Assembly: GCF_002025255.2 (NCBI RefSeq)
Contig: NZ_CP054589.1
Span: 62,001 to 126,000, forward strand
Reading direction: 5' to 3'
Origin: Halolamina sp. CBA1230
GTDB lineage: Archaea > Halobacteriota > Halobacteria > Halobacteriales > Haloferacaceae
DNA length: 64,000 nucleotides
The position numbers were made by a program, and so were the translations under genes. Shown here piece by piece: positions 3,860-26,925 of the stretch (within the stretch, counting starts at the first letter, position 1; each line of letters starts with the position of its first letter). The notes beneath the pieces were generated by a model that had not been told where the DNA came from, made no database searches, and was given only the letters and a program-made list of their open reading frames with translations.

Positions 3860-3890
3860 TTTTTCGGCCGGGCACGAGGTGGTGGCCCGG
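3860..3890 (+). promoter_or_regulatory. hairpin leader, copy 1
   Basis: A T-run (3860-3864) is followed by the stem CCGGGC (3868-3873) and GCCCGG (3885-3890) around a loop with ACGAGGTGGTG. The gene starts at 3912 behind a GGGTGA ribosome-binding-like sequence. This is one of eleven related leaders in the window. Confidence 0.6.
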
Positions 3891-3911
3891 TACGACCGGG
3901 TGAGTCAACCA

Positions 3912-4307
3912 ATGAGTCTCGAAGTACTTGACCGACACAGCGAGGCACTGTTCGAGTTCCTCTGGTGTCCCGTCTGCGGGCAGGAGGTCTTCACTCACAT
4001 CCCGTTCGAGGGGGTGTTCTGCAAGAACTGCAACACCCAGGTCGAACTCCAGGAATCCCGAGAGACACGCGGCTACGAGGAGGCCGTGCTCGCCTGCTTC
4101 GATACAACCACGACCTGGAACCTTCACATCGACGATAAACTGCGCCGCGACCTGCCTGGTGGGTCGGCGCGCGTGAAGATCCTCGGCGCACCGGGCGCCT
4201 ACGAGGTCGACTGGTGGAGTCCAGAGTCGGGTGAAGACTGGGAACCTGTAGAGCGCGGGGAGTTCGACGACGTCGAGCCGCCAGACGAAGTCTCCCATCT
4301 TGCGTAG
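3912..4307 (+). CDS. zinc-ribbon protein of the plasmid early-gene type
   Basis: The gene encodes 131 residues. An N-terminal zinc ribbon is visible as CPVCGQEV and CKNCNTQV about 20 residues apart, followed by an acidic, beta-rich domain with two tryptophan-rich patches (VDWWSPESGEDWEPV). The start at 3912 is preferred because it follows the repeated T-run/hairpin leader and a GGGTGA motif. No function is known. Sharing the leader with the ArdC-like and DUF932-like genes suggests the same expression programme. Confidence 0.65.
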   Translation: MSLEVLDRHSEALFEFLWCPVCGQEVFTHIPFEGVFCKNCNTQVELQESRETRGYEEAVLACFDTTTTWNLHIDDKLRRDLPGGSARVKILGAPGAYEVDWWSPESGEDWEPVERGEFDDVEPPDEVSHLA

Positions 4308-4439
4308 TCGACTCGGCCAATTGCTGAAATGTCCATAAGTAAGGACTGACGAAGCCTTCCCCCTAACTTGTGACCATTCTTTAGTTTATGGTTTGGGAAG
4401 TCCGCCAAGTTAATGAGAAATCGTTGTTACAGAGAGCCC

Positions 4440-5678
4440 ATGAATGAAAAGTGGGATAATATTTTTCTCTATCAGCATGCAGGAGATGATACTAATAAGC
4501 AACTAGAGAATAACATCACAAAGAATCTACTAAAGGTTGTTCAAGATACCGACAGTCAGTTGTTACGGTGGCTTCTTTCAAGGGGGTTCCCGGACGAGCA
4601 ATGGACAGACTACAAACTGTCAAGTGTTGACTCTCAAGTCTCCCTTCATACTGGTTCAGTACAGGAAAAATTAGAAGCGGGAGGGGAAGGATATCTCCTT
4701 GGAATTTCTCGTTACGGAGAGGAAGTCGCAACAGAAACCGATCCAGACCAGACCGCCGACAGCACAATAGACGGGTATCTTGAACTTGTTGGACCAGACA
4801 ACCGGTCTCGTCTTATCGGAATCGAAGTGAAAACTTACAGTGATCAGCTTCGCGCTGGCCAGATGTCTAAATACCGTCATTGGTTAGGAATTCCCCGAAA
4901 CCCGGAATCACCACGTTTGGGGACCGTTACTTGGGGCGCGATCTATGCGGCGCTAAATGATGCGGTCAAAGCGCAAAATAGTGCTAATACACCTCGCCCA
5001 GAGATGGGGAAAGATCCGTATCTGTGGAAGGAGTTTGGACAAGCTCTTCTCTACGATCAGCTTGAGGTAATAGTCGCTGAAAACAATGAAGCCCCGCATA
5101 AGCGTATGTGGATGCGGCCTTCTCCAGACTCCTCAGACACGAACTCTAGCTATGAAATCACAATCACCTGGGAGGATTCTAACAATGCCACAAAATCTCG
5201 ACTTGGATGGATGTCCACGACTGAATTTGAGGAATTACTGAACCAGGTACCATTATCGGTTCGGAAAGCGGCTTTCGGCGATCCTTCAGTATCCTACCCG
5301 CGATTTCTTGATGCGCTCTATGAAGTTGACGAGTATTCAAATATACAGAATCAGACGACTAAGAATATTGCTCGGACAGCCCTGACAGACGGTTCTGAGA
5401 GGGCATTCCGGATGAAATGGCTTACTAACGATGAAACTGGCGAAGTTGTCAGTGAAGTACCTCATTTTCGGATTGTCAAATACTACAAATCAGGGAACTA
5501 CGCACAAGGATCGGCTCCTAATTTAGATCCAGATGCGTTCGAATCTCTTTTCGAAAGTATCCCGATGGATATCCGACGACAGGCCCTTGTCGGGAATCCA
5601 GAACCAGATGTATCGGTACTTTGGGAGATGACAGTTGAAGATACGACCAATCTTACTGATCCTCGGATTTCAGATTGA
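4440..5678 (+). CDS. PD-(D/E)XK-type nuclease-like orphan, AT-rich
   Basis: The gene encodes 412 residues. Around residues 105-130 the pattern STIDGYLEL...RLIGIEVKT gives an Asp followed by E-x-K at the end of a beta strand, the core of PD-(D/E)XK nucleases, and the following RAGQMSKYRHW would fit its helix. Two later repeats resemble each other (LLNQVPLSVRKAAFGDP and LFESIPMDIRRQALVGNP). The base composition is clearly more AT-rich than in its neighbours, pointing to recent acquisition. It has no methylase neighbour. A defence nuclease is the likely role, as an inference from fold and context. An in-frame ATG at 4413 is an alternative start. Confidence 0.55.
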   Translation: MNEKWDNIFLYQHAGDDTNKQLENNITKNLLKVVQDTDSQLLRWLLSRGFPDEQWTDYKLSSVDSQVSLHTGSVQEKLEAGGEGYLLGISRYGEEVATETDPDQTADSTIDGYLELVGPDNRSRLIGIEVKTYSDQLRAGQMSKYRHWLGIPRNPESPRLGTVTWGAIYAALNDAVKAQNSANTPRPEMGKDPYLWKEFGQALLYDQLEVIVAENNEAPHKRMWMRPSPDSSDTNSSYEITITWEDSNNATKSRLGWMSTTEFEELLNQVPLSVRKAAFGDPSVSYPRFLDALYEVDEYSNIQNQTTKNIARTALTDGSERAFRMKWLTNDETGEVVSEVPHFRIVKYYKSGNYAQGSAPNLDPDAFESLFESIPMDIRRQALVGNPEPDVSVLWEMTVEDTTNLTDPRISD

Positions 5679-5788
5679 AAATATGAGCAGTAATTTACTG
5701 ACGAGGACATCTGAATGTTAAATATCCCGATATGACTTGAAGGTTCCGTAGCTCGTTGCAAGTTGACGTCTACAGATATGTGATCTTG

Positions 5789-5817
5789 TTTCTGCGCCGG
5801 CGATGGGTGCCGGCGCA
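5789..5817 (+). promoter_or_regulatory. hairpin leader, copy 2
   Basis: A short T-run (5789-5791) is followed by a perfect 9-bp stem, TGCGCCGGC (5793-5801) and GCCGGCGCA (5809-5817), around GATGGGT. A GGTGA motif follows just before the start at 5837. It has the longest stem of the family. Confidence 0.6.
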
Positions 5818-5836
5818 CACGCGTCGGCGGTGATCG

Positions 5837-6409
5837 ATGTCGACACGAAGTCAACTCCGATTCATCCAACGGATCGAGCCCGCAATCGAACAGTCCGAAA
5901 CCGACCGCATCGCACAGATCTACCGTCACTCGGATGGCTATCCCGACAGCGTCCTCCGTGACCTTGTCCAGCTAAAGGAGCTGCTCGACGAGACACGAAC
6001 AGAGCGCGGGCCTGCGTACGCCGCTGCCCAGTTCCTGTTTCTCGACACGCTCTCGACGATGACCCTCTACGTGGACGAAGGGCGTGACCGGAGCATCCAC
6101 GCTGACCACCCCTCGGATCTCCTCGAGCCGGACAATATGGAGCACCTCGACCGGCCGATGTTCCTGCTCGGACACGGCGTCGAGAACCCAGCCGACGGCA
6201 TTCACGGCGACGAGGAGTACCTCTACGTCGTCGAGCTCCCGACCCGGAACCCGTTCGAGGAGCCGTCCGAGTGGACCGTCAAGGTGAGTGGTCACTCCGC
6301 CTTCCCGCGCTGGGATGGTCCGACCGAGGAAGCCTTCGAGCGGGCCAGCTGGCAGTTCCACGGCCCGCTTGAGCAGGCGCTCGAAGAGATCGTCGCTGAG
6401 CCGGCGTGA
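5837..6409 (+). CDS. conserved plasmid/virus-type protein, unknown
   Basis: The gene encodes 190 residues. The N-terminal half has IAQIYRHSDGYPDSVLRDL, a motif seen in many uncharacterised plasmid and phage proteins (Y-[RK]-H-x-DGYP). The rest is acidic and alpha/beta with no catalytic signature I recognise. It sits alone behind a copy of the repeated hairpin leader, 19 nt from the end of the hairpin, which links it to the early-type genes at 19-27 kb. The function is unknown. Confidence 0.65.
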   Translation: MSTRSQLRFIQRIEPAIEQSETDRIAQIYRHSDGYPDSVLRDLVQLKELLDETRTERGPAYAAAQFLFLDTLSTMTLYVDEGRDRSIHADHPSDLLEPDNMEHLDRPMFLLGHGVENPADGIHGDEEYLYVVELPTRNPFEEPSEWTVKVSGHSAFPRWDGPTEEAFERASWQFHGPLEQALEEIVAEPA

Positions 6410-6422
6410 ACGCTTAGCCCGC

Positions 6423-7787
6423 TCAGATGATGCCGCCGATGACGAGTAGTCCGACGACGATCAGCAGCGTCGCGACAACGCTTCCCCCGGCCAGCCACTT
6501 GTTCTCCATCGCCTTCTCGTGAAGCGGCATCGCGGCGTACTCCTCGCGGAACGCTTCGAGGTTCTCCTCGTTGTAGAAGTACTTCGTCTTCAGCGCGAAC
6601 CGTTCCGTCCTCGCACAGCCCGTACAGACCGGCTCGCCTTCCAGCCGCTCCGTTTTGATGTGACTGGAGCAGGCGATGGCCCCGCAGTTCGGACAGTAGG
6701 TGTACGTCTCGTCGGTGCCGCTCGTGTCACAATGGACGCAGCGGTGGATGCCATCCTCGGCTGTCACTCGTGACGGGCCTGCCGCGTAGTACTCGTAGGG
6801 GTAGGTGTACTCCTGGATGTCGGTCGTGTGCAGAACCTCGGGGAGGTACACCGGCTCAATCGACTGGACCGAGATGTCCGAGCGGTTCGGCTCGCAGGTC
6901 TTGTTGTACGTGACGTTGTTGTCGCCGGTGTAGGTCACCGTCGTCGTGTGGTGTTGCTGGAGCCGCTCGACGGCCCATTCCTTGTACTCCGTTTGGGTCT
7001 GGCCGAACCGGCGCTCCTCAACGTCGTCGAATACTTCTCCGAACTGCTCGGTGTCGAGGTCGACCGTCGCGTGGAGGTTCTCGGTGACCAGCGTCGCGAA
7101 GTCTTCGTCGACGACCTGTGGCTGCCCGCGCTCGGCGTGGGCGACGAATCGAGTCCGGTCGTTGATCCGGTGGATGACGCCCACCGACGTCTCGAAGACA
7201 GCGTTCGTGTCCGCGGTGACAGCGACCACCGGGCGGAACGTCACCGATGAGTGTGGGTCTGGGAGGTCGGCGGCCTCGATGTTCTCGATGTCGCGGAACG
7301 CCTCCGTGACTGGCGCGTCGACGTCGGCGGCCGGATCGTACGGGCGGAGCGTCTCGTCGCAGAGAATCTCGATGCGACCGTTGTAGAGGTCGAGGCCGAT
7401 CTCGTCGGCGATCTCCCGGAGATCCTCGCCATCGAGCAACTCGATTGGATGTGGGTCGTCGTTCTGCTGGAGGCGGTCGGCGTACTCCTGAGCAGGGTTC
7501 GTAAACCGGCCGGTCGTGACGACCATTCCGCGTTTCGGGCCGTCGAAGTCGAACGTCGCGATCGCCGAGTGGAGCTTCTGGACGACCGGCCGCCCGACCG
7601 TCCCCGTGTGCTTGCACTCGACGATGATCGCGCGCCGCCTGCCGTCGACGACTTCCTCCATGATGACGTCGCGCCCCTCGTCAGCCGTACGATCGGCCTG
7701 GCGGACGTTCTCGTAGCCGAGGTTCCGGAACACGTCCTCCATCACGTCCTCGAACTCGAACCCCGAGAGATCGTCCAGTACAGCCAT
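6423..7787 (-). CDS. Mrr-like membrane-anchored restriction endonuclease
   Basis: The N-terminal 130 residues are an Mrr_cat-type PD-(D/E)XK domain: GFEFEDVMEDVFRNLGYENV is the first helix, DEGRDV carries the catalytic Asp, and IIVECKHTG carries E-x-K, followed by VGRPVVQKLHSA. After a long middle region, two CxxC pairs form zinc ribbons (CVHC, CPNC, CSSH, CTGC, about residues 350-400), and the C-terminus ends in a single hydrophobic segment of about 22 residues. Mrr enzymes usually cut modified DNA, but the membrane anchor is unusual and suggests surveillance of entering DNA. The start at 7787 (MAVLDDL) is preferred over 7793. Confidence 0.75.
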   Translation of the reverse strand: MAVLDDLSGFEFEDVMEDVFRNLGYENVRQADRTADEGRDVIMEEVVDGRRRAIIVECKHTGTVGRPVVQKLHSAIATFDFDGPKRGMVVTTGRFTNPAQEYADRLQQNDDPHPIELLDGEDLREIADEIGLDLYNGRIEILCDETLRPYDPAADVDAPVTEAFRDIENIEAADLPDPHSSVTFRPVVAVTADTNAVFETSVGVIHRINDRTRFVAHAERGQPQVVDEDFATLVTENLHATVDLDTEQFGEVFDDVEERRFGQTQTEYKEWAVERLQQHHTTTVTYTGDNNVTYNKTCEPNRSDISVQSIEPVYLPEVLHTTDIQEYTYPYEYYAAGPSRVTAEDGIHRCVHCDTSGTDETYTYCPNCGAIACSSHIKTERLEGEPVCTGCARTERFALKTKYFYNEENLEAFREEYAAMPLHEKAMENKWLAGGSVVATLLIVVGLLVIGGII

Positions 7788-7844
7788 CCTCAATTATGTG
7801 GATAGTGTGAGGGGAATAACCATCTCTTTTGCGATAGGATAAAC

Positions 7845-9325
7845 CGACACAGCGAGCGGTAATTCACCGCCGATATAAGCCCGAAGATTCCACCGTTGTC
7901 AAACATTACCTTTACAATTCAGACAAGTATAACCTGTTATAGAGACATTCCGGGGATGTTGGAAATCCACCGTACCCACCGAGCGCGGATCCGCAACCAT
8001 TCACAGGCGGTAGAGCCACTCGACCGGCACGGGTGGAGTGCCAGCAAACTCTGGAATGTCGCCAACTACTACTCCCGCCAAAAATGGAAGGACACCGGGG
8101 AAATCCCTGGTCACGAGGAACTCAAAAGCGAGCTGAAGGATCACGACAAGTACCGAGGGCTGCACAGTCAGTCCAGTCAGCGGGTTCTGGAGGAACTCGC
8201 TGAAGCCTTCAACTCGTGGTACTCCTCAGACGATGACCGGGACAACCCGCCTGGATACCGCAAACGCAGCTACTACGACGACCAAGGCCGCCGCGTCCAC
8301 GAAGAACACCCGCGCAGCACGGTCACGTGGAAGCAGAAGGGCATCCGACACGACCCGAAACACAATCGCGTCCGCCTCAGCAAAGGCGCGAATCACAAAG
8401 ACCACCCACGGGACCGCGATTACATCATCGTCGAATACGAGACGCGACCCGGCATCTCGGTCGAGAACCTGCAACAGGTTCGTGCCGTCTACGACAACGC
8501 GAAGGAACGCTGGGAACTCCACCTCGTCTGCAAAGACGAGATTGAGACGCCGGACGCACCCGGAGGGGAGACCGCTGGCATCGACCTCGGTATCTCGAAT
8601 TTCGCCGCTGTCGCCTACAGCACGGAAGAGGCCGACTTATACCCGGGTAATCGGTTGAAACAGGACGGCTACTACTTCCCAAAGGAAATTGCCAAGTGTG
8701 ACGACAGTGGTGGCGAGCGGGCGACACGGCTGCACCGGAAGTGGTCTGAGCGCCGCCGGCATTTCTTCCACGCCCTCGCCAAGCACATCGTCCAACGGTG
8801 TGTGGAGAAGGGCGTTGGCCGGGTCAACGTCGGAGATTTGAGTGGGTTGCGTGAGGATGAGAGCGGTGAGGCGAAGAACTGGGGACAGCACGGCAACCTT
8901 GACCTGCACGGGTGGGCGTTCGACCGGTTCACCTCGATTCTCGAATATAAGGCGAAGGCCGAGGGGATCGAGGTCGTGGAAGTGGACGAGGGTAGCACAT
9001 CGAGGACGTGTTCTGTGTGCGGGAAAGAAGACGATGGGCAGCGTATTGAGCGTGGCTTGTACGTCTGTGAGGAGTGTGACGCAGCGTTCAACGCGGACGT
9101 AAATGGGGCGGAGAACATCCGTCTCGACATCAACGACAGCGCAAGTAACTCCGAGTCCCCGTCTGGGGATAGGAGTACCGGCTGGTTGGCCCAGCCCGGA
9201 GTCTACCTGTACGACCTCTCCTGCGGATTCGAACCGCAGGCCGAGGTGGTGGACTCTAAACCGTAATATCCCAACGCTCGGGAATCCCATCTCTTCAGGG
9301 GGTGGGAGGAGGTCAAGTGGACAGT
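7845..9325 (+). mobile_element. TnpB-only IS200/IS605-family element
   Basis: The element holds the tnpB at 7956-9266. A left-end hairpin GCGGT-AATTC-ACCGC lies near 7855-7870. A right-end hairpin, TCCCA (9285-9289) with TGGGA (9303-9307) enclosing CTCTTCAGG, lies just beyond the stop codon. IS605-family ends are subterminal palindromes, so the exact cleavage sites are uncertain. No tnpA is present. Confidence 0.6.
7956..9266 (+). CDS. tnpB: TnpB-family protein with altered RuvC-II
   Basis: The 436-residue protein belongs to a TnpB lineage distinct from the two other kinds here. RuvC-I is AGIDLGISNFAAV and RuvC-III is AFNADVNGAENI, both with the catalytic Asp. The zinc knuckles are CSVCG and CEECD. 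At RuvC-II, where most TnpBs have V-x-E-D-L, it reads RVNVGDLSGL, so glycine stands in place of the catalytic glutamate. It could be nuclease-deficient or use a displaced glutamate, as reported for some TnpB branches. The start at 7956 (MLEIHRTHRARI) is preferred to the longer 7896 reading. Confidence 0.85.
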   Translation: MLEIHRTHRARIRNHSQAVEPLDRHGWSASKLWNVANYYSRQKWKDTGEIPGHEELKSELKDHDKYRGLHSQSSQRVLEELAEAFNSWYSSDDDRDNPPGYRKRSYYDDQGRRVHEEHPRSTVTWKQKGIRHDPKHNRVRLSKGANHKDHPRDRDYIIVEYETRPGISVENLQQVRAVYDNAKERWELHLVCKDEIETPDAPGGETAGIDLGISNFAAVAYSTEEADLYPGNRLKQDGYYFPKEIAKCDDSGGERATRLHRKWSERRRHFFHALAKHIVQRCVEKGVGRVNVGDLSGLREDESGEAKNWGQHGNLDLHGWAFDRFTSILEYKAKAEGIEVVEVDEGSTSRTCSVCGKEDDGQRIERGLYVCEECDAAFNADVNGAENIRLDINDSASNSESPSGDRSTGWLAQPGVYLYDLSCGFEPQAEVVDSKP

Positions 9326-9351
9326 ACGTTGCCGAACGCTACGCCATCCTG

Positions 9352-9384
9352 TTTGTTGAACCCCTGAGAGGGGTGCGGGGGTCA
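9352..9384 (+). promoter_or_regulatory. hairpin leader, copy 3 (weak)
   Basis: A short T-run (9352-9354) is followed by GAACCCCTGAGAGGGG and TGCGGGGG. CCCC can pair with GGGG on either side of a TGAGAGGGGTGC loop that keeps the family core. It precedes the small gene at 9406. Confidence 0.5.
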
Positions 9385-9405
9385 CCGAACCGCCCGCGAG
9401 CAACG

Positions 9406-9615
9406 ATGAACGGGAATGTTCCTATGGCCAGTTCGGACTCGGTTCCAGTCGCATCGCCCGCACAGTTTCACCGAGACACAGTCGAATACGTCGGCTTCCG
9501 CGTCGACGGCCAAGCCGTCGTCCTGAACTTCTCGGAGCATCGGCGACTCTCCCTCGAGCGCAGTCTGGACCTCGTCAACCACAGTCTATCTGGCCGCCTA
9601 AAGAGACTTACGTGA
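9406..9615 (+). CDS. small unknown protein behind a family leader
   Basis: The gene encodes 69 residues, or 63 if the ATG at 9424 is used. A beta-rich stretch (VEYVGFRVDGQAVVLNF) is followed by a charged helix (RRLSLERSLDLVNH). It starts about 20 nt after a degenerate copy of the T-run/hairpin leader. It begins about 80 nt after the right end of the TnpB element, so it may have lost a native promoter or gained one from the insertion. No function is recognised. Confidence 0.45.
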   Translation: MNGNVPMASSDSVPVASPAQFHRDTVEYVGFRVDGQAVVLNFSEHRRLSLERSLDLVNHSLSGRLKRLT

Positions 9616-9823
9616 GACGCGGTTGCACAACAGTTCCCGCGCTGGAGCCGGTAAATTAGTCAATATAGAAGGATCAGGGACAGTCTGGGAAATGATCTGG
9701 TCAGCATCTGTCAGAAGAGAGTTGCTGACTATAGAGTGTGTTCAGCACTTGACAACGTGCTCGGGTCGTTCGGCTACGGACGCTACGAGGGAGACGGAAC
9801 GTACAGGAATCGTTGACGGAAGA

Positions 9824-10297
9824 TCAGCTGTCCTCTGGCCAAGTACCATTCGTATCCGTACCCACGGAAGCCGCTATCGGGACGATGAGCGGAAGCGTGA
9901 AGAGTGCCCCCCATACAACGATCACGGCGACGAACGAGATGGATTCGAAAACCGTCCCGTCTGGGGGTGCGCCAGCGGGAGACTCGATTAGGGTGGCTGT
10001 GATACCTATCAGAGTCGTGAATACGAATACAGAGACAACCCCCGAGAAAGCGCCGGCTATGGGACCGTAGCGTGGGTTCGGTTCGTCCGGCATCGTCACA
10101 CGCCAGACGACAGTCGCGACGGTCAGCGCGACAACGAGGGTGACGATCATTCCGAGGGTGGGGATGGGGCCTCCCCGGGACCCCGAACCAGAAAGGAGGT
10201 TCAAGAGGGCAAATAGAGCGGCAGCGACGTACGCCGACCCGGCGGTGGCGAGGCCCGCCCCAACATCTCGTCGAGACAGACCTAGATAGTCATTCAT
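9824..10297 (-). CDS. four-helix membrane protein, unknown
   Basis: The gene encodes 157 residues. It begins MNDYLGLSRRDVGAG and has four hydrophobic segments (about residues 12-34, 45-65, 75-97 and 118-140) with short loops and an acidic tail (TDTNGTWPEDS). Small four-helix proteins of this type are frequent in haloarchaeal chromosomes. The start is set at 10297 because a longer frame to 10423 would add a polar, unrelated N-terminus. No function is assigned. Confidence 0.5.
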   Translation of the reverse strand: MNDYLGLSRRDVGAGLATAGSAYVAAALFALLNLLSGSGSRGGPIPTLGMIVTLVVALTVATVVWRVTMPDEPNPRYGPIAGAFSGVVSVFVFTTLIGITATLIESPAGAPPDGTVFESISFVAVIVVWGALFTLPLIVPIAASVGTDTNGTWPEDS

Positions 10298-10470
10298 CTT
10301 CCAATCGGCGAACGTTTGCGGCCAATCAGTTATAAACGTTCGACGAACGACCGTCTCAACCGACACCGCTGACTCGTGACCGACTCGCGCTCTGTATTCA
10401 GCAGGACTGCTGAAACCTATCACCGATTGAGGGTTTCAACAAGGCCAATCGATTCAAAGCGGGGGAGGTG

Positions 10471-11615: not shown

Positions 11616-11686
11616 TTCAGCAGCAAATTCGGTGGCTGCAGCGGTCCAGAGTCACGATCCATCCGAACCGATCTCGGGGTGGTGGA

Positions 11687-14214: not shown

Positions 14215-14280
14215 GGTGGTAATCCTAGGACGTCACTGGCAGTCCCAGATTTTGGGCGGCGACAATTCACTACGGAGCTG

Positions 14281-15721: not shown

Positions 15722-15791
15722 GATTCGACCACTTCGCCCTCGTACACCACTTGCTCGTAGGAGGATCGAACGGTACTGTCGGGTGTTTCGA

Positions 15792-16100: not shown

Positions 16101-16166
16101 AGCGATCTGGATCCCTCTCTACGCTCGGTGCCGCCCCCCAGCCCGATTCCCACTTCGTGTTCGCTT

Positions 16167-19071: not shown

Positions 19072-19112
19072 GCGACACGAACGCCGCTGAGCGATAGCCC
19101 GGTTTTGTGCGC

Positions 19113-19140
19113 CGTGAAGGGGTGCGGCGCGTCCTGACTG
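19113..19140 (+). promoter_or_regulatory. hairpin leader, copy 4
   Basis: T-run 19113-19116, stem GCGCCG (19119-19124) with CGGCGC (19135-19140), loop TGAAGGGGTG. A GGTGA motif precedes the start at 19174. It is nearly the same leader as at 24389 in front of the full ardC-like gene. Confidence 0.6.
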
Positions 19141-19173
19141 TCGGACAGGCCGAACTTGATTCGGTGATTTTCT

Positions 19174-19344
19174 ATGACTACCACCAATGCATCGGTCTCT
19201 TTCGACGAGATCGACACACGACTAGACGAGATGCACAGTATGATTGAAGTCTACCCGTTTTGGCATAGGAGATTCTCCCTTTCTACCGAGAAGAACAAAA
19301 TCACAATGACAGGAGCGTACCGACGGAGACAGCTGAGGATGTGA
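19174..19344 (+). pseudogene. 5' fragment of an ArdC-like gene
   Basis: The reading MTTTNASVSFDEIDTRLDEMHSMI matches the start of the ArdC-like protein at 24464 (MATTSDSSVSFDETDTRDDEMNSTI) and then diverges into 30 unrelated residues before a stop. The leader in front is also a copy. So a segment covering the leader and first ~25 codons was duplicated, or a second full gene was lost by deletion. The 56-residue product is unlikely to act as a peptidase. Confidence 0.65.
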
Positions 19345-19383
19345 GGACACTCTCCAGGTCGAATGGTAGTTCGTGAGACGTTG

Positions 19384-19414
19384 TTTTTGCGCCCGGGAGA
19401 GGGGCGCAGGGCGC
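19384..19414 (+). promoter_or_regulatory. hairpin leader, copy 5
   Basis: T-run 19384-19388, stem GCGCCC (19389-19394) with GGGCGC (19409-19414), loop GGGAGAGGGGCGCA. A GAGGTGA motif precedes the ATG at 19466. Confidence 0.6.
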
Positions 19415-19465
19415 GAGACGATGCAGTCGCACGTCGACGAGGATTCCTGAAGTGAGGTGACTGAG

Positions 19466-19660
19466 ATGAAAGATCCAGAGTCCAGAACCATCTTCGCTGG
19501 CGTCGATGGGCGTACCGACACCGAACTACCAGAGTGGTACCGAGAGTGGCATGGAGATGCAGACCCCGTGACCTTCGCCGAAGCGATTCGCGATCTTCCG
19601 CAGTCGCTCAGCGGGTCGAGAGTTTATAACGCATTACGGGGGAACCGCGGAGGGAGGTGA
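19466..19660 (+). pseudogene. 5' fragment of the DUF932-like gene
   Basis: MKDPESRTIFAGVDGRTDTE matches the start of the protein at 20818 (MKDPEEATVFAGLDGRTNTE) for about 50 residues, through IRDLPQ, and then ends after a few residues, against about 385 residues for the full gene. It may still be translated: its last codons form the GGAGGTGA that precedes the TTG start of the HNH gene at 19668, so it could serve as a coupled leader ORF for that gene. Confidence 0.6.
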
Positions 19661-19667
19661 CGGAGCT

Positions 19668-20492
19668 TTGACCGACCATATCTGTGACTACTGTGGCGAG
19701 TCATTTGCGACCTCCCACGAGTTGGGTGGCCACGTAACCGCGGTCCATCGTCGCGACCAGATCGTAACAGACGCGGACGTAATTCTCGACGATATTCGAC
19801 GTGTCGCAGACAAATTAGGAAAACCGCCGACAGCAAAGGAGATGAGCGAGCACGGAGAATACTCCCAGCGCGTCTGCCAGAACAAATTCGGGAGCTGGAA
19901 CGAGGCCCTGCGTGAGGCTGGCTACGCTCCGAATCGGAAATTCCGACTCACCGATCAGGACCTGGTGGACGAGATTGACCGGCTTGCGGAGCAGATCGGT
20001 CGCCCGCCATCGAGCGGGGAGATGGATCGGATTGGGGAGTATCATAGATGGACATATGACCACCGATTTGGGGGGTGGGAAGAGGCACTCACCGAAGCTG
20101 GCTTCTCACAACCACGGTCCTATCAAGAACGTTCAGAGATTCCGTACGGGCCAAATTGGCCGGAGAAACGGCGGCAAGCACTGGAACGTGATGACTTCCA
20201 GTGCCAAACGCCGTGGTGTGGGATTACCCAAGCGGATCATCAAGAGCAAGTTGGGAAGGACATCTCTGTCCACCATTTGGTCCCGCGGAAGTTCTTTGTC
20301 ACCCCCGATGGGCAGTTTGACCACGAACAGGCGAATCGAGTCTCGAATCTCGTGACGGTCTGTTCGAAGCATCATCTCATCTGGGAAGCCGTCGCCCCGC
20401 AGCGATTGGATACGATTGTCGACGCCACACAGCCACCAAATCGAGGTGGGCCGGAGGGTGTTGCTCTCCCTCTACGAGGGGATGAGAGGTAG
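19668..20492 (+). CDS. HNH endonuclease with zinc finger and homing-endonuclease-associated repeats
   Basis: The gene encodes 274 residues. A C2H2 finger opens the protein (CDYCGESFATSHELGGHVTAVH). Two homing-endonuclease-associated repeats follow (about residues 38-90 and 92-145), each ending in a FGSWNEAL or FGGWEEAL motif. The HNH domain is at about 165-240: CQTPWCG, SVHHLVPRKFF and VTVCSKHHLIWE. The start is TTG, chosen because a strong GGAGGTGA (19652-19659) lies just before it and no in-frame ATG precedes the finger. Such enzymes nick or cut DNA; the repeats probably read sequence. Confidence 0.8.
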   Translation: MTDHICDYCGESFATSHELGGHVTAVHRRDQIVTDADVILDDIRRVADKLGKPPTAKEMSEHGEYSQRVCQNKFGSWNEALREAGYAPNRKFRLTDQDLVDEIDRLAEQIGRPPSSGEMDRIGEYHRWTYDHRFGGWEEALTEAGFSQPRSYQERSEIPYGPNWPEKRRQALERDDFQCQTPWCGITQADHQEQVGKDISVHHLVPRKFFVTPDGQFDHEQANRVSNLVTVCSKHHLIWEAVAPQRLDTIVDATQPPNRGGPEGVALPLRGDER

Positions 20493-20508
20493 CCCCCTCG
20501 TGATTCAA

Positions 20509-20751
20509 ATGAGACAGACAGATGAGCCTCTCCCGACACCCAATCCAGGCGATCTCACGAACAGAGAACGACTCCGGAGGCACCTCACCAATGCCCTCGA
20601 AAGCGCCGAGTCGGCAGAGACGAAAGTCCATCTCCGGGGAGCCCTTGCTGCCTGGCAGGATCTTCCGCCGACACCACTCGTCGAGTGTCCGCTCTGTGGA
20701 AAAGTCGGGCTTCCAGAGCGAATCCAAGCTCACGAGTGTCGGCAGTCGTAG
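20509..20751 (+). CDS. small zinc-finger protein
   Basis: The gene encodes 80 residues: a Pro-rich polar start, a helical middle (ERLRRHLTNALESAES) and a C-terminal C2H2-like knuckle (CPLCGKVGLPERIQAHEC). It follows the HNH gene by 17 nt and is probably cotranscribed with it. A small nucleic-acid-binding or adaptor protein is the most one can infer. Confidence 0.55.
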   Translation: MRQTDEPLPTPNPGDLTNRERLRRHLTNALESAESAETKVHLRGALAAWQDLPPTPLVECPLCGKVGLPERIQAHECRQS

Positions 20752-20756
20752 CGTCG

Positions 20757-20785
20757 TTTTTTGCGCCTCGATGGGTGGAGGCGCA
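20757..20785 (+). promoter_or_regulatory. hairpin leader, copy 6
   Basis: T-run 20757-20762, stem TGCGCCTC (20762-20769) with GAGGCGCA (20778-20785), loop GATGGGTG. A GGAGG motif lies nine bases before the ATG at 20818. Confidence 0.65.
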
Positions 20786-20817
20786 GATCAGAACGCTTCG
20801 CGCCTTCGGAGGATGCT

Positions 20818-21974
20818 ATGAAAGACCCAGAGGAAGCTACGGTCTTCGCAGGCCTTGATGGGCGAACCAACACCGAACTACCCGAGTGGTACGCCGAGCA
20901 ATACGGAGGTCCCGAACCAATCAGCTTCAGTGCGGCGATTCGAGAGCTTCCCCAAGCAGTCGACACAGCAGTCGCATATCGCAACCCGTACGCCGACGAT
21001 TGGGTCGAAACAGAGCGATTCAACGCCATCGTCGAGCCGTCGCGATTGCAAGCAGAAGCGGACGGTGACGCCGAGACGGAGTCGCTATTCCATATCCCGA
21101 CCGACTCGTACGCGATCATCAATCCGGTCGACGTCTACGGCCCGCTGGAGGAGGTCCTCCGCGAGGAGACCATCGACGGGACGCCGCTGGGTGAGGTGAT
21201 GTTCGGCGAGATTCGGCGCTACCGGGGAGGCGGCAAGGTCCACATGGACATCATGTTCGACGGCCTCGAGGTGCGCCTTCCCGGTCGGTCGGACCCGATT
21301 ACGATGGGCGTCACGTCGGGCTACGACTTCTTCGGCGAGCACGCCGTCTACGTGGAGGGGTTCGCTCAGGATGGCTACTGCTCGAACACGATGCGCTCGC
21401 TCACCGACAAGGAGGTCATCAAACACGTCGGCGACGTGCGGAACTTCCGGACCTGGTGGGAGGAACTCCTCGCACAGGTCGAACTCGTCGCCGATGACCT
21501 CTTCGAGTTCATCCGGGACGCTCAGGATATCGACCTCGACTTCTCGGAACTCCCGTTTACCGTCACGGAGTTCTACACCCTGCTGGGCTTCCCGGACTAC
21601 CTAGCCGAGCGCGCTGCGAGCGATGCCGAGGCCAACGCGGCCTCACCCGTCGAGATCGATATGTGGACGCTCCATTCCGGCGCGACGTACGCGCTCACTC
21701 ATTCTTCCAGGGGAAAGAGGGGGCATCCCTCGATCAATACGTCCGGATCGCCAACGATATTCTGTTCAACCCGGAAGGCAGCATCGAGCGCGTCGAGCAG
21801 GCGTACGAGCAGCAGTTAGAGGCGGACGGCGACGACGGATCGCAAGCCTCGCTGGAGGGTGAACGAGCGCTGGCGAGCATCGAGCGGGTCAGCGACGACC
21901 TGCAAGAGAAAGTCGAGCAGTTCGAAGAGCGAGAGGACGCGCTTCGTGAGCGGTTCCAAGAGGCGATGGCCTGA
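20818..21974 (+). pseudogene. DUF932-like plasmid protein with a frameshift
   Basis: The first 300 residues read cleanly from MKDPEEATVFAGLDGRT, with a central part (VMFGEIRRYRGGGKVHMDIMF, seen as EIRRYRGGGKVHMDIMF, then TSGYDFFGEHAVYVEGFAQD) that recalls DUF932 'phage/plasmid-related' proteins. At about 21705-21715 the frame shifts: the expected continuation (FFQGKEGASLDQYVRIANDI ... EEREDALRERFQEAMA) is in the next frame, up to the TGA at 21972-21974. One base inserted or lost explains it. A sequencing error or true inactivation are both possible. DUF932 proteins are typical of conjugative leading regions and phages. Confidence 0.6.
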
Positions 21975-22005
21975 CGCCGGGTCGGGGATGTAGTCGTCTG
22001 TTCTG

Positions 22006-22034
22006 TTTTTTCTCGCCCTGGAGGGGTGGAGGGC
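22006..22034 (+). promoter_or_regulatory. hairpin leader, copy 7
   Basis: T-run 22006-22011, stem GCCCT (22015-22019) with AGGGC (22030-22034), loop GGAGGGGTGG. The ATG at 22042 is only 7 nt beyond the hairpin, so the structure itself would lie over the ribosome-binding region. Confidence 0.6.
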
Positions 22035-22041
22035 TACAGAG

Positions 22042-22263
22042 ATGGAACAGTCCACGATTAGCGACGGGGGTGACGGCGAATTCCCACCTGAGAAGCGTCT
22101 CGAAGCACCGAATTACCGATTGGTCAAGGCCGGTATCGCGACGATCCCGGATATGGAGACTCTAAAAGAGTGTGTTGCCTACGAAAATACCCACCAGAAT
22201 CGGACGCAGATCCTGCGCCGGCTTAAGTGGAAGGCTGAAGAGCTACGTGAGGACGAAGAGTAA
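22042..22263 (+). CDS. small unknown protein behind a family leader
   Basis: The gene encodes 73 residues, highly charged, with a central YRLVKAGIATIPDMETLKECVAYEN segment (seen as YRLVKAGIATIPDM and ETLKECVAYE) and a basic/acidic helical tail (RTQILRRLKWKAEELREDEE). No family is recognised. It starts immediately after a leader hairpin and is followed by an inverted repeat (22273-22314). Confidence 0.55.
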   Translation: MEQSTISDGGDGEFPPEKRLEAPNYRLVKAGIATIPDMETLKECVAYENTHQNRTQILRRLKWKAEELREDEE

Positions 22264-22272
22264 GCTCTATTC

Positions 22273-22314
22273 TTAACCAACACACTCTGCGTGAGTTCCC
22301 CTATTGTTGGTTAA
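22273..22314. repeat. TTAACCAACA inverted repeat, copy 1
   Basis: TTAACCAACA (22273-22282) and TGTTGGTTAA (22305-22314) are a perfect 10-bp inverted repeat with a 22-nt spacer. It lies between a small gene and the leader of the HNH gene at 22455. The same arms occur at three other places in the window. Confidence 0.75.
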
Positions 22315-22329
22315 TCCGCTGTACTTCGG

Positions 22330-22358
22330 TTTTTCCGGCCCCTGAAAGGGTGCGGGGC
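22330..22358 (+). promoter_or_regulatory. hairpin leader, copy 8
   Basis: T-run 22330-22334, stem GCCCC (22338-22342) with GGGGC (22354-22358), loop TGAAAGGGTGC. It lies 97 nt from the likely ATG at 22455, farther than in the other copies. Confidence 0.6.
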
Positions 22359-22454
22359 AGCCAGAATCGATAGGATGACGCATCACAGACGCCAGAGCGG
22401 ACATTCAAATACCGAGACGGGACCAATCTGAGTGATTCAATCCCCTCAGAAATC

Positions 22455-23672
22455 ATGGGCAAGAAGCTGTATTCAGACGATAAACTACTAAATCGGCTCC
22501 AGAAGTTCGCTGAGGAACTCGGTCGTCCACCCTCACAAAGTGAGATGGACGATTCAGGGCCTCATGCTTCGAAGACGTACGGGAATCGGTTCGGGTCGTG
22601 GAATAACGCACTCGAGGCTGCCGGACTTCAAACCGGAACAAACGACCCAAACGGACGATCACCGACGCCCGAAGAGGACCTCCTTACTGATCTCAAATCA
22701 GTTGCCGACATCGTAGGGGGAACTCCGTCAGAGCGCGAATACAGTAATCACGGCGAGTATTCGGTGAAGACATACTGTAAGCGATTCGGAGGGTGGAATG
22801 CAGCACTACGAGCGGCCGGTTTTGAACCGAATGTCGATATGAACCTCTCCGAGGAGACACTCATTACTGCCTTACAGGGGTTCGCTGAGAAACTAGGTCG
22901 AACACCCACGTCAGATATAATGGACCAGAGTGGTCCCTATACCGCGAATTCGTACAAGCGGGCTTTTGGAACCTGGAATTGTGCTCTTCGACAGGCTGGG
23001 TTGGAAGTCCAATCCGTGTGGGATGTGAGCGAAGAGGATCTGATATCCGGACTCAACAGTCTCGCCGAAGAGCTAGGCCATGTCCCTCGAAAGGATGAGA
23101 TGCGAGAACAGGGGAAATGGAGCGCGGCAGTCTATCAGGAGCGATTCGGTTCGTGGAATGAAGCTCTACGAATTGCCGGTTTCGAGCCGAATGAGCGGTG
23201 GCGAATTCCACGGGAGGAGTTATTAGCCGAATTGAGGACAGTCGCGGATGATCTGGGCCACCCACCGACAACAACGGAAATGAACGAACACGGGGAGTTC
23301 ACCATCGATCCGTATCAGCGTGAGTTCGGAGCGTGGCGAACAGCCCTTCAAGCGGCCGACCCGGACTATCTAGAAAACTACCGCCAGTCAGATGTTGAGA
23401 CAGTTCCGTTTGGCTCGAACTGGCCACAGATTCGTGAGGAGATCATAGTCCGTGATAACGAGTCCTGTCTGCGCTGCGGTATGGGCCGCAAAGCTCACCG
23501 CGAGAAATTCGGACGTGATCTTCCGGTTCACCATCGGATTCCTCGACGCCGGTTCTACGACGACCCAGACCGATCGGTCGACGATGCAGATGTCCCGAGT
23601 AACCTGCTGACTCTCTGTATCCCGTGCCATCGCCGACTCGAACGGCTGCCAGTCCAACCAGTAGTTGACTAA
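22455..23672 (+). CDS. HNH endonuclease with five homing-endonuclease-associated repeats
   Basis: The gene encodes 405 residues. Five to six tandem repeats of about 55 residues fill residues 5-315. Each has a helix with [FV]A[ED][EK]LG[RH]xPxxxEM and ends in FGSWNNAL, FGGWNAAL, FGTWNCAL, FGSWNEAL or FGAWRTAL. A C-terminal HNH domain follows (CLRCGMGRKAH, PVHHRIPRRRF, LLTLCIPCHRRLE). It is a larger relative of the enzyme at 19668, without the zinc finger. Repeat number probably sets the length of DNA contacted. No intron or intein context is visible, so it is a free-standing endonuclease. Confidence 0.8.
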   Translation: MGKKLYSDDKLLNRLQKFAEELGRPPSQSEMDDSGPHASKTYGNRFGSWNNALEAAGLQTGTNDPNGRSPTPEEDLLTDLKSVADIVGGTPSEREYSNHGEYSVKTYCKRFGGWNAALRAAGFEPNVDMNLSEETLITALQGFAEKLGRTPTSDIMDQSGPYTANSYKRAFGTWNCALRQAGLEVQSVWDVSEEDLISGLNSLAEELGHVPRKDEMREQGKWSAAVYQERFGSWNEALRIAGFEPNERWRIPREELLAELRTVADDLGHPPTTTEMNEHGEFTIDPYQREFGAWRTALQAADPDYLENYRQSDVETVPFGSNWPQIREEIIVRDNESCLRCGMGRKAHREKFGRDLPVHHRIPRRRFYDDPDRSVDDADVPSNLLTLCIPCHRRLERLPVQPVVD

Positions 23673-23754
23673 CAAGCGAAGTCCCACGTTCAGCACAAAG
23701 GTATCTGCCGGCGAGCAAAGCGTCTACCTCCCGCCGGCGTGACTTTGCGACCTG

Positions 23755-23783
23755 TTTTTCGTGCCCCCAGAGAGGGCGAGGGC
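23755..23783 (+). promoter_or_regulatory. hairpin leader, copy 9
   Basis: T-run 23755-23759, short stem GCCC (23763-23766) with GGGC (23780-23783), loop CCAGAGAGGGCGA. The start at 23804 is GTG. A long GC inverted repeat (GCCGGCG/CGCCGGC, about 23707-23738) just before the T-run may end the upstream HNH transcript. Confidence 0.55.
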
Positions 23784-23803
23784 TCCATCGAGGGTCCTCA
23801 GAG

Positions 23804-24160
23804 GTGACTTCAGTGAGTCAACAACAGAATGCCGACAACGTCTCAATCGACGACATCCCAGTCGATATCGACAGCACACAATCAGGTGAGGTCAATCCCA
23901 CCGACGTCCCCGATGAAATCGAGTCGATCAGCCGGGGGCTTGCCGGTGAACACCCGCCGACGAATCCGCTGGTCGTACTGAAAGCGGCTCGCTGGTGGTA
24001 TCTACACGGCAAGGGCGGCACGGATCCTGCCTTCCAGTGGGCCATCGAGTGGGCGCGTCACCTTGCGACCGACACGCCCAGCGACGTCGAGCGGTTCGAC
24101 GCGTACCTCGAGTACCTCGTCACGGTCGGCTTCGCTGATGAGAAGGAAGCGCTTCGCTGA
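23804..24160 (+). CDS. small acidic plasmid protein, unknown
   Basis: The gene encodes 118 residues. The N-terminal 55 residues are polar and acidic and look disordered. The C-terminal half is helical (NPLVVLKAARWWYLHGKGG, FQWAIEWARHLATDTP). The start is GTG at 23804 or 23813, and no ATG lies near. It is one of the genes behind the repeated leader and sits just before the convergent small zinc-ribbon gene. No function can be named. Confidence 0.55.
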   Translation: MTSVSQQQNADNVSIDDIPVDIDSTQSGEVNPTDVPDEIESISRGLAGEHPPTNPLVVLKAARWWYLHGKGGTDPAFQWAIEWARHLATDTPSDVERFDAYLEYLVTVGFADEKEALR

Positions 24161-24307
24161 TCAGAGCTCGTAGCAGACGACATCCTCAGCCCCACAGCTT
24201 GGACACTCTTCGGCGTTCTCTGAGAGTGTCTCTCCACAGTTTCGGCACTCCCACAGGGTCGATGACTCCCCTTCGACGGCCCTGCGGAGTGTACTCAAGA
24301 GACCCAT
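24161..24307 (-). CDS. 48-residue zinc-ribbon microprotein
   Basis: The minus strand reads MGLLSTLRRAVEGESSTLWE, then CRNCGETL and CPSCGAEDVVCYEL to a TGA. Two CxxC knuckles 14 residues apart make one zinc ribbon. Such very short ribbons are numerous in haloarchaea and some influence stress responses. It is convergent with the 118-residue gene, with no intergenic gap (24160/24161). Confidence 0.65.
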   Translation of the reverse strand: MGLLSTLRRAVEGESSTLWECRNCGETLSENAEECPSCGAEDVVCYEL

Positions 24308-24388
24308 TCTGGCTTATCTGATGTACTTGCGGTTGTTAACACCATCCCCTGTCAGCCACCCCGACTTGAACGAAGTCGCGGAGGCGTG

Positions 24389-24418
24389 TTTTTTATGCGC
24401 CCCTGAGGGGTGCGGCGC
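24389..24418 (+). promoter_or_regulatory. hairpin leader, copy 10
   Basis: T-run 24389-24394, stem GCGCC (24397-24401) with GGCGC (24414-24418), loop CCTGAGGGGTGC. A GGTGA motif lies before the ATG at 24464 of the ArdC-like gene. Confidence 0.65.
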
Positions 24419-24463
24419 GGTCTGAACTGACGCAGTCGCCGTGAACTCAATTCGGTGAACACA

Positions 24464-25390
24464 ATGGCTACGACCAGTGATTCGTCGGTTTCCTTCGATG
24501 AGACCGACACGCGAGACGACGAGATGAACAGCACCATCGATCAGTGGATCGACGACCTCGTCGCCGGCGTCGACGACGCGCAGGCTAGCGAGGAGTTCCA
24601 GGAGTGGCTCGACGTCCAGAGTCGCTTCCACGACTACTCCTACCGGAACACGCTCCTCATCAAGCGGCAGTGTCCCGAGGCGAGCCGGGTGGCGGGCTAC
24701 CGGACGTGGCAGGAGGAGTTCGACCGCCACGTCACGGAGGGTGAGTCGGCCATCTGGATCTGGGCACCGATCATCACCAAGCAGTGCCCGGAATGCGAGA
24801 ACTCGCCGAGCTATCACGAGGATAGCGACTGTGACTACGACGAGACGTCGCCCGAGGAGTGGTCCGAGGGCCTGGTCGGGTTCAAGCCCGCGCCGGTGTT
24901 CGATGTCTCCCAGACCGAGGGCGAGCCGCTTCCCGACCTGGACACAGAAGCAACCGGGGACGCCGGCGACCTCGTCGAACAGCTGACTGACGCCGCTGAT
25001 GACCTCGGCGTGACGGTGCGGATCGTTCCAGCCGAGGAGTGGACCCACGGCGATGCGAAGGGCATCTGCGAGCAGCTGAGCCTCGTCGACGTTCAGCCGC
25101 TCGTCGAGGTGCGTGATCGGGAGAACGAGGCCGACCTCGCGCGGACGCTAATTCACGAGTACGCCCACGCTCTGCTCCACTTCGACGTCGACGACGACAC
25201 CGAACGGGCGAAACGCGAGGTCGAGGCCGAAGCCGTCGCATATGTCGTCGGGCGGTACTGTGGGTTGGACACCAGCGGCTCGGCATTCTACCTCGCTGCG
25301 TGGGAGTCGGACGATCCCGAGGTCGTTCGCGAGCGGCTCGGACGGATCAGTTCTACAGCAGAAGAGCTCATCGACGTGCTAGATAGCTAA
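24464..25390 (+). CDS. ArdC-like antirestriction metallopeptidase
   Basis: The gene encodes 308 residues. An ArdC N-terminal-like ssDNA-binding domain spans about residues 25-110 (FQEWLDVQSRFHDYSYRNTL, then VAGYRTWQEEFDRHVTEGES and IWIWAPI). A Cys-containing insert follows (CPECENSPSYHEDSDC). The C-terminal zincin domain has LIHEYAHALLH (HExxH, about 231) and VEAEAVAYVVGRYCG with the third ligand. ArdC on bacterial conjugative plasmids protects entering single-stranded DNA from restriction. A similar entry-phase role on this plasmid is inferred. The start at 24464 follows the leader and a GGTGA motif. Confidence 0.8.
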   Translation: MATTSDSSVSFDETDTRDDEMNSTIDQWIDDLVAGVDDAQASEEFQEWLDVQSRFHDYSYRNTLLIKRQCPEASRVAGYRTWQEEFDRHVTEGESAIWIWAPIITKQCPECENSPSYHEDSDCDYDETSPEEWSEGLVGFKPAPVFDVSQTEGEPLPDLDTEATGDAGDLVEQLTDAADDLGVTVRIVPAEEWTHGDAKGICEQLSLVDVQPLVEVRDRENEADLARTLIHEYAHALLHFDVDDDTERAKREVEAEAVAYVVGRYCGLDTSGSAFYLAAWESDDPEVVRERLGRISSTAEELIDVLDS

Positions 25391-25409
25391 CTCTACTCGG
25401 CGGTTTGGC

Positions 25410-26708
25410 CTATTTCAGCAGACCAGACAGGAAGGATGAGGAGCCACCAAGAACCCGATCCAGCCGCCAGGTAAACAGTCCACGTGCAGCCGAAACAAGT
25501 AGGATAGTTCCAATAATCCAGAGTATTACGCTTCCGAAAATATAGCTACCAATCAAGATACCGACTTGGCCAATTGCTACGACTACAAGGAGTCGTTTCT
25601 TTTCTCGTTCGTATATTTCTGAGAGCCTGTTGAACTCGTCCAAATCATCTGGTAAGGAGTAACCCCTGTTGGCCCCGCGTTTCCAGACAGTCGGGGCCAT
25701 TGATACGCCCACCAAATCTTCCGGACCACTAGAGACGGTGAGATCTTGCAGATCTATGGTCCACTCAGTATCGCATTCCGTACAACGCAGCAACGAGTAA
25801 GAATGGTTAGTTTCCTCAATAGAACGCCGGACGACGGTCGTGTCTCCAGTACAAACCGGACAGCTGTCCGGAGTAATCGGTGTTATAGAAGTCGTATTTG
25901 AGTCAATTCGATCTAGTTCACTTGAGATCTCACCATAGAGCCGGTTAATCAGCCTCTCCGAGGCCTCTGAGTATTCTTCAAGTGCGGCATCGAGATCATC
26001 TGCGAGTAGTTTTAAGTCTACGAGTGTGCCACGAAGATCCTCGTCCTTTGCTCCAGTCGATAGGTTCTCAAGGGTATTACGATACTCTTCAACCACTACT
26101 TGTAGTTCTACGGCAGCCTGGTGGAAATCATCATATCTGGAGACCGTACTCTTTGAGTCGCTCCACGAAATTTCTTCATCAAATGTATTAAGTTCAGAAT
26201 AGAGGCTTTGAAGCTGGTCATCAAGTTCGTTAACCGTTTCGTCTATTCTACGTGAAAGCCGGTTGGATCGTTCGTCTGAAGGAAGTGACTGAGCGGTCTC
26301 AAATAGCTCGTTCAATTCCTCGATGGCCTCAATAATCGCGTTCACTAAGTCATAGGTGTTAGCTATCTGGTTCCCACACGAGAGTTCAGCGGCGACAGAA
26401 TAGGGGAATTTACTCTCGTTCAGTGGGAATTTTAGCTGTGCTTCAGACGAGGCCTCGTTGGGTCGAGAGGCATCCGCTGTCGGGGCTACAGAATTCCCAT
26501 GAATAGCATCGTGACAATCCTTACAGAGTGTTTTTAGATTGCTGGTGTTATGGGTTCCTCCCTTACTCTTCGGTACAATATGATGGGCATGAAGCTCTGC
26601 ATCACCATGAGGACCACCTAGTGCACCGCAGTTCTGACAGGTGTAATCATCTCGGCGATAGACCTCTTTGCGGCGTGATCCCCAATCGCTGGGATACCCC
26701 TCGCTCAT
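25410..26708 (-). CDS. membrane-anchored HNH nuclease with coiled coil and zinc ribbon
   Basis: The gene encodes 432 residues, AT-rich relative to its neighbours. An N-terminal HNH domain (about 5-75) shows CQNCGALGG, HAHHIVPKSKGG and LKTLCKDCHDAIHG. A long helical, coiled-coil-like region follows (about 110-270). A zinc ribbon (CPVCTGDTTV ... CTECDTEW) is at about 285-325, and two closely spaced membrane segments are near the C-terminus (about 375-415). This is the build of a membrane-associated effector nuclease that may sense a signal through the helical region. A defence role is inferred. Confidence 0.65.
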   Translation of the reverse strand: MSEGYPSDWGSRRKEVYRRDDYTCQNCGALGGPHGDAELHAHHIVPKSKGGTHNTSNLKTLCKDCHDAIHGNSVAPTADASRPNEASSEAQLKFPLNESKFPYSVAAELSCGNQIANTYDLVNAIIEAIEELNELFETAQSLPSDERSNRLSRRIDETVNELDDQLQSLYSELNTFDEEISWSDSKSTVSRYDDFHQAAVELQVVVEEYRNTLENLSTGAKDEDLRGTLVDLKLLADDLDAALEEYSEASERLINRLYGEISSELDRIDSNTTSITPITPDSCPVCTGDTTVVRRSIEETNHSYSLLRCTECDTEWTIDLQDLTVSSGPEDLVGVSMAPTVWKRGANRGYSLPDDLDEFNRLSEIYEREKKRLLVVVAIGQVGILIGSYIFGSVILWIIGTILLVSAARGLFTWRLDRVLGGSSSFLSGLLK

Positions 26709-26844
26709 TATCAAAATAAATCCTAGAGGTGCCGAATAGTGGTTTTGGTGTGATATTGGCTAAGACCAGCAGTTTCTGATCTGAAGATCTTTGATTTCTA
26801 CTGGTATCTGGCGTTCACACGAATATCTGCGGAGAATGAGCTTG

Positions 26845-26873
26845 TTAACCAACATCCCACTATTGTTGGTTAA
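26845..26873. repeat. TTAACCAACA inverted repeat, copy 2
   Basis: TTAACCAACA (26845-26854) and TGTTGGTTAA (26864-26873) have a 9-nt spacer, shorter than in the other three copies. It abuts the T-run of the leader for the SWIM gene, so both signals act on the same promoter region. Confidence 0.75.
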
Positions 26874-26874
26874 G

Positions 26875-26905
26875 TTTTTCAGCGCCCGCCGAGGGGCGGA
26901 GGCGC
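26875..26905 (+). promoter_or_regulatory. hairpin leader, copy 11
   Basis: T-run 26875-26879, stem GCGCC (26882-26886) with GGCGC (26901-26905), loop CGCCGAGGGGCGGA. The start codon of the SWIM gene is at 26926. Confidence 0.65.
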
Positions 26906-26925
26906 ATTCAGACCTCCGCCGAACG

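Follow-up and report, generated by a model that had tools for sequence, protein, structure and literature searches.

The repeated element and the genes it precedes

The window analyzed in this study is the whole 64,000-nt stretch of Halolamina sp. CBA1230 DNA at positions 62,001 to 126,000 of NZ_CP054589.1, a 253-kb contig referred to as C3, with the host order taken as Halobacteriales. Eleven copies of a short leader, composed of a run of T and a hairpin, had been claimed for this window by a first-pass annotation, and all eleven were confirmed, each on the plus strand and preceding a gene or gene remnant. Ten of the eleven positions given for them also held, the T-run of the copy placed at 19113 really lying at 19103. 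The element is ~40 nt in length and follows one plan, in which a G and the T-run are succeeded by a short spacer and then by the 5′ and 3′ arms, with a purine-rich stretch between the arms whose end is GGG(T/C)G; the arms form a single hairpin with a stem of about 4–9 bp. The G stands directly before the T-run in all eleven window copies. It represents a family with a covarying stem, a rule of one strand per replicon, a position at gene starts and a link to transfer genes.

All of the genes following the copies are on the plus strand. Copy 1 (3855–3895) precedes a DUF7567 gene (3912–4307; Pfam E 1.9e-66), and copy 2 (5782–5822) a gene of 190 aa with no Pfam family (5837–6409). The genes behind copy 6 (20751–20791) and copy 7 (22001–22041), encoding 333 aa (20818–21819) and 73 aa (22042–22263), have no Pfam family above the cut-off. 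Copy 8 (22325–22365) lies before an HNH gene (22455–23672) with five HNH_repeat stretches, copy 9 (23750–23790) before a 118-aa gene with no Pfam family (23804–24160), copy 10 (24385–24425) before an ArdC-like gene (24464–25390), in which ArdcN scored above the cut-off and Peptidase_M78 slightly below it, and copy 11 (26870–26910) before a SWIM-finger gene (26926–27744). The gene classes named previously were thus upheld for ArdC, for HNH with a match just under the cut-off, and for SWIM with a weak match, also below the cut-off, while DUF932 found no match in the ten window proteins scanned.

The remaining three copies precede short open reading frames (ORFs). Copy 3 (9348–9388) is followed by an ORF of 63–80 aa, copy 4 (19097–19137, T-run at 19103) by one of 56 aa whose start resembles that of the ArdC-like protein, and copy 5 (19379–19419) by one of 67 aa. 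These ORFs of 56–80 aa, behind the copies at 9352, 19103 and 19384, look like remnants rather than intact genes. The starts of the ORFs at 19174–19344 and 19466–19660 resemble those of the genes at 24464 and 20818, respectively, and each has kept its own element, which suggests duplication followed by decay. The copy-3 type of element stands before a DUF6166 gene in plasmid pJ7-1. Between a minus-strand restriction endonuclease-like gene and copy 3 lies an ORF that reads as TnpB-like (7896–9266), and the gap from the restriction endonuclease-like gene to the copy-3-type element is 62 nt in five plasmids.

A family with a covarying stem

A first model, built from 16 copies of which ten came from the window, recovered all eleven window copies, each with an E of at most 1.7e-4 and with copy 5, which was not in the training set, among them; the next match was at E 1. 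A loose scan of the window for a hairpin plus loop gave ten hits on the plus strand (nine of the eleven copies and one at 48415) and one on the minus strand. Further matches to the first model were found in the same genome, on contigs C3, C2 and C1, and in other plasmids; all of those on C3 are on the plus strand; on C1, six matches have E <0.01, and each of these is on the minus strand. A second model was constructed from 96 matches, with genome matches counted at E 0.001, and matched 63 genomes in a sample of 116 taken from the order, representing 28 of 44 genera. In a sample of 148 genomes of the phylum, for which the tally of genomes from outside the order is incomplete, 16 had a match, 15 of them in the order and one outside it at E 7e-4. 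Comparison with Rfam, at gathering scores, returned no match for the window, leaving a family without an Rfam match. A comparable archaeal element was not found in a literature search covering mostly titles and abstract openings, the subscription literature being largely outside its scope. A viral origin was considered and rejected: viral contigs contained no relative of ArdC, and one exact pattern found no match either.

Because the register of the stem varies from copy to copy, covariation, which had been claimed from the window copies, was assessed by exchanging 5′ and 3′ arms between copies with the loop motif as anchor. Pairing scored 16.0 for a copy's own arms against 13.0 for swapped arms (z 7.4, n = 53), and none of 5000 permutations was as high. 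As the redundancy limit was tightened z decreased, with values of 8.8 for 77 copies and 4.9 for 20 copies (<55% identity), and in each case none of 3000 permutations was as high. Since a model could favor matches that pair well, the test was rerun on copies found by sequence motif alone, with a similar outcome (n = 30, z 6.6, 0 of 5000). The anchors of the covariation retest fixed G and T and restricted columns 2 and 5. The column-pair covariation score exceeded all shuffles in both alignments; counts of double changes and of pair types were not above shuffles in the two alignments, and in A5 one slid version scored higher. Folding of the cores relative to mononucleotide shuffles gave mild z values, of −0.9 as RNA and −1.5 and −2.0 as DNA.

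A sequence profile was made from 96 matches, of which six without the anchor were dropped and 90 kept, 53 of these being non-redundant. The T-run is the sole AT-rich part of the element, and many T-runs are interrupted. In columns 3, 4 and 5 of the run, T occurs in 51, 33 and 49 of the 53 copies and A in 2, 9 and 0; the scarcity of A was read from these columns only, because the earlier ones are constrained by the anchors, in which G and T are set and only T/C is allowed in column 2 and T/A in column 3. No strong conservation was observed upstream of the G, with a maximum of 0.28 bits over the eight preceding columns.

An inverted repeat, TTAACCAACA...TTGTTGGTTAA, was read from the sequence upstream of copy 8 (22273–22314, strandless) and again, in the same form, abutting copy 11 (26845–26873, strandless). 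A half-site of this palindrome lies within 100 nt upstream in nine of the 53 non-redundant copies, and it is a possible candidate operator for a repressor.

Position at gene starts and genes served

Seven annotated stretches of five plasmids contained 63 matches, all on the plus strand. The next plus-strand start codon lies within 150 nt of 57 of them, 51 of the 63 end 13–49 nt before it, and none lies wholly within a coding sequence. By the motif alone, 54 of 207 plus-strand genes of these stretches carry the element, a count that leaves out the eleven window genes, chosen for having a copy, as against none of 90 minus-strand genes. The suggested position upstream of ArdC was likewise recovered, with the motif within 150 nt in 71 of 78 genome-contig loci, whereas shifted control windows had it in 0, 8, 1, 4, 2 and 6 of 77–80 loci. 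The seven ArdC loci without the motif each have a model match at 9922–9962 of the locus stretch.

The genes served include those for ArdC-like proteins, TFB, DUF6735, DUF6166, DUF7567, HNH and proteins of unknown families. The element stands 23–32 nt before the TFB start in all six annotated plasmids examined, these being pSTJ002, pHAR02 (one of two TFB genes), pHALXA02, pJ7-1, a Haloplanus plasmid and pNRC200. In pNRC200 of Halobacterium salinarum NRC-1, three matches, all on the minus strand, lie at 303500–320500, with one (308352–308392) 30 nt before the TFB gene VNG_RS11900, and this stretch also has SWIM, winged-helix and OB-fold genes. No element was seen in front of P-type ATPase, metal ABC transporter or druA insertions in the gene tables read, in which cargo was not classified systematically. 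In the pJ7-1 element region, one protein (L051:15951-16829) has a match in the NCBIfam family MBSP1, ‘biosurfactant protein 1’ (E 6e-139), a name that seems out of place on a plasmid.

One strand per replicon and the link to transfer genes

All 80 matches in five whole plasmids (16, 16, 18, 13 and 17, with the 13 in pJ7-1 of Natrinema sp. J7-2) conform to one strand per replicon; the training of the second model includes these matches, so that their being matches is partly by construction, while their strand is not. The 80 ArdC loci gave 386 matches, and the 300 among the matches listed are all on the ArdC strand. Orientation relative to a transfer gene, which had been proposed as a check, followed the same rule: among the 150 genome matches listed, 108 have a gene for the conjugation channel protein TrbL/VirB6 within 120 kb, and 105 of these 108 share its strand. 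Again among the matches listed, 39 of 41 TrbL loci are fully concordant and all 69 neighbor pairs are on the same strand. The three discordant elements (two in genome G018 and one in G011) are at least 39 kb from the TrbL gene used.

Across the 116 genomes, 46 have both the element and TrbL, 17 the element only, eight TrbL only and 45 neither (p 2.5e-10, which is optimistic as the genomes are related). Plasmid pJ7-1 itself encodes a protein of the TrbL/VirB6 family, and a gene annotated as DNA primase there adjoins a weak HerA-like match; the Haloplanus plasmid record annotates VirB4. C3 carries two TrbL genes (31667 and 141527, both on the plus strand) and element clusters at ~59–89 kb and 168–235 kb, a layout as if two conjugative elements had been joined.

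A GC-rich noncoding stretch of ~550 bp, in which several inverted repeats were seen by eye, lies in pJ7-1 (L051:11230-11815) upstream of a gene for a weakly matching Ssb-like OB protein. It shares 94% identity over 546 bp with pHAR02 and 99% over 191 bp with the Haloplanus plasmid, occurs in the genome studied here outside the window (C3:47269-47807, C3:183600-184137 and C1:1740400-1740955), and has whole or partial matches in 75 of the 116 genomes. This stretch is a candidate origin of transfer (oriT) or, alternatively, a candidate long structured leader.

A proposed establishment regulon read from the entering strand

In our judgment, the entry of conjugative plasmids into a new archaeal cell, and their survival there, are little understood. 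We favor, with a confidence that stays somewhat below even, the reading that the ~40-nt elements are cis-elements of a haloarchaeal plasmid establishment regulon, acting on single-stranded DNA after entry. On conjugation-type plasmids and their integrated relatives, every gene of such a regulon would carry a separate element a short way ahead of its start codon; the minus-strand genes examined have none. By analogy, from the presence of ArdC and from bacterial parallels, the genes served would be establishment genes. The element most likely works in the entry phase, through the folded strand: the hairpin would form on the incoming strand while the region is single-stranded, and may start transcription there by recruiting host or plasmid transcription machinery, so that expression would be early and transient. 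With its own element, the TFB gene could bring about self-amplification, although a duplex promoter read by TFB fits this equally. The wider proposition, that Archaea use single-stranded DNA promoters in which hairpins of the entering strand switch on the establishment regulon with TFB reinforcing itself, is more doubtful and is put forward as a conjecture.

Plasmid genes for the handling of single-stranded DNA (PolB, ExoVII and SRAP, with weaker matches to primase and to an Ssb-like OB fold) are consistent with a role on the entering strand. Folding predictions point in the same direction, with mean stem probabilities of 0.49 and 0.43 for minus-strand DNA in a short and a long stretch, against 0.45 and 0.36 for plus-strand DNA (p 0.04 short, 0.0007 long).

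Several observations weigh against this reading. The preference for minus-strand DNA may arise from the G+T-rich plus strand alone, and the DNA stem probabilities are modest (means 0.36–0.49), computed at ordinary salt. Within-family mismatches favored neither strand (69 G.T vs. 77 A.C); a version of this wobble test on regular-expression matches, 588 on the plus strand and 149 on the minus strand, was discarded for its background contamination. In folded DNA the T-run pairs little, with a mean pairing of 0.10–0.16 in the core and 0.28–0.35 in 110 nt, and therefore no duplex TATA is mimicked. The median copy pairs equally well with 17 of 52 foreign arms, since arms are GC-rich and similar in type. 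Six of the 63 plasmid matches have no annotated plus-strand start within 150 nt, one of them (L054:33139) lying between minus-strand genes, and 17 of the 63 genomes with the element have no TrbL match. Neither an oriT nor a relaxase turned up in the proteins scanned, and the part of the pJ7-1 proteins that was scanned showed no relaxase and no member of the Rep-Arvir family (PMC13107129). Furthermore, the transferred strand of pLS20 is the non-template strand (PMC8708921).

The alternative that retains most weight, although we consider it unlikely, is an RNA leader, in which transcription starts upstream and the T-run and hairpin in the mRNA bind a plasmid or host protein controlling translation or stability. 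Covariation of the stem would be expected of such a leader, and the separate ribosome-site-like sequence reported earlier for most copies is indeed commoner than in controls (33 of 57 element genes vs. 33 of 150). A search upstream for TATA or B recognition element (BRE) signals, however, gave a flat profile, with no AT peak or BRE-like conservation aligned to the element. TATA-like motifs were found before only one of 15 element genes with an opposite-strand upstream neighbor, compared to 35 of 65 controls, a weak test in which the controls were not above their own shuffles, so that the absence of an upstream promoter is unproven. Stem probability was also lowest as RNA (means of 0.37 for the short and 0.24 for the long stretch), a comparison in which the long RNA stretch differs from the long DNA stretch and the energy sets differ too, and the mismatches show no G.T excess.

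Rather improbable, in our judgment, is a double-stranded promoter read by the plasmid TFB, with the T-run as an atypical TATA box, a possibility that had been raised for the T-run at the outset. The element before TFB in all six plasmids would fit self-activation, and the only AT-rich part is where such a box would be placed. The fit is nevertheless poor: A seldom occurs at those T-run columns in which the anchor permitted it, there is no BRE-like conservation, and covariation of the stem has no evident role in a duplex.

Two further explanations are given little credence. As ssi-like sites, the elements would prime synthesis of the second strand on the one that enters; this would account for elements on one strand and suit the plasmid PolB and primase genes, but not the tight coupling of the element to gene starts. 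Similarly improbable is an insulator, whose T-run would end upstream transcription and keep the gene silent in the donor. Archaeal transcription can be ended by T-runs, but here many are interrupted, and the hairpin comes after the T-run. A precedent for an insulator exists in the read-through block by EGeRS1 in pLS20 (PMC8708921).

A recombination site of gene cassettes is barely credible, since, despite repeated hairpins in one direction and the short remnants behind copies 4 and 5, the element stays with its downstream gene; integron-like cassettes were rejected, since the plasmids read appear to share much the same gene order (judged by eye, not counted).

If the elements are indeed those of an establishment regulon, they give, in one line, a signal by which candidate haloarchaeal establishment genes can be searched for; many of these have no known function, and new counter-defence proteins may be among them. 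They also allow a test of whether transcription by archaeal RNA polymerase can begin on a folded single strand of DNA.

Comparison with known systems

Two bacterial systems are close in role. With Frpo, RNA polymerase transcribes single-stranded DNA that has folded into a duplex carrying −35 and −10 sequences (PMC11541004, whose main text nowhere uses the word archaea). As with Frpo and ssi in that article, the haloarchaeal elements are hairpin-forming inverted repeats on one strand, before anti-restriction and other plasmid genes; the genes behind Frpo and ssi are early ones in bacterial conjugative plasmids, and early expression of the genes here would follow from these parallels. In contrast to Frpo, as described there, the archaeal element has a short stem (about 4–9 bp) beside an unpaired T-run, with 13–18 matches per plasmid. 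The earlier reading of the window copies as an Frpo-like leading region or a riboregulator agrees with the covariation, the strand rule, the position before ArdC and the transfer-gene link, but the folded duplex does not hold the T-run, and no other TATA- or BRE-like part was seen aligned to the element.

EGeRS1 belongs to the pLS20 plasmid family of Bacillus and occurs in pLS20 in five copies of 400–600 bp with multiple inverted repeats, its mechanism being unknown, and blocks read-through (PMC8708921). It resembles the haloarchaeal element as a repeated structured sequence before ardC and other genes in which no promoter has been found, whereas the latter is ~40 nt long with one hairpin. EGeRS2 of p576 is also a repeated regulatory sequence upstream of establishment genes, and some haloarchaeal copies add the upstream palindrome half-site; EGeRS2, however, contains a strong promoter with Reg operators (PMC8708921), and none such was recognized in the haloarchaeal element. 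Recurring in conserved form ahead of ardC and further genes of the plasmids, the element is EGeRS-like by role, yet it is far shorter than EGeRS1 and, unlike in Frpo, its T-run lies outside the stem; for these reasons it is filed with neither, while by analogy its role appears comparable to both.

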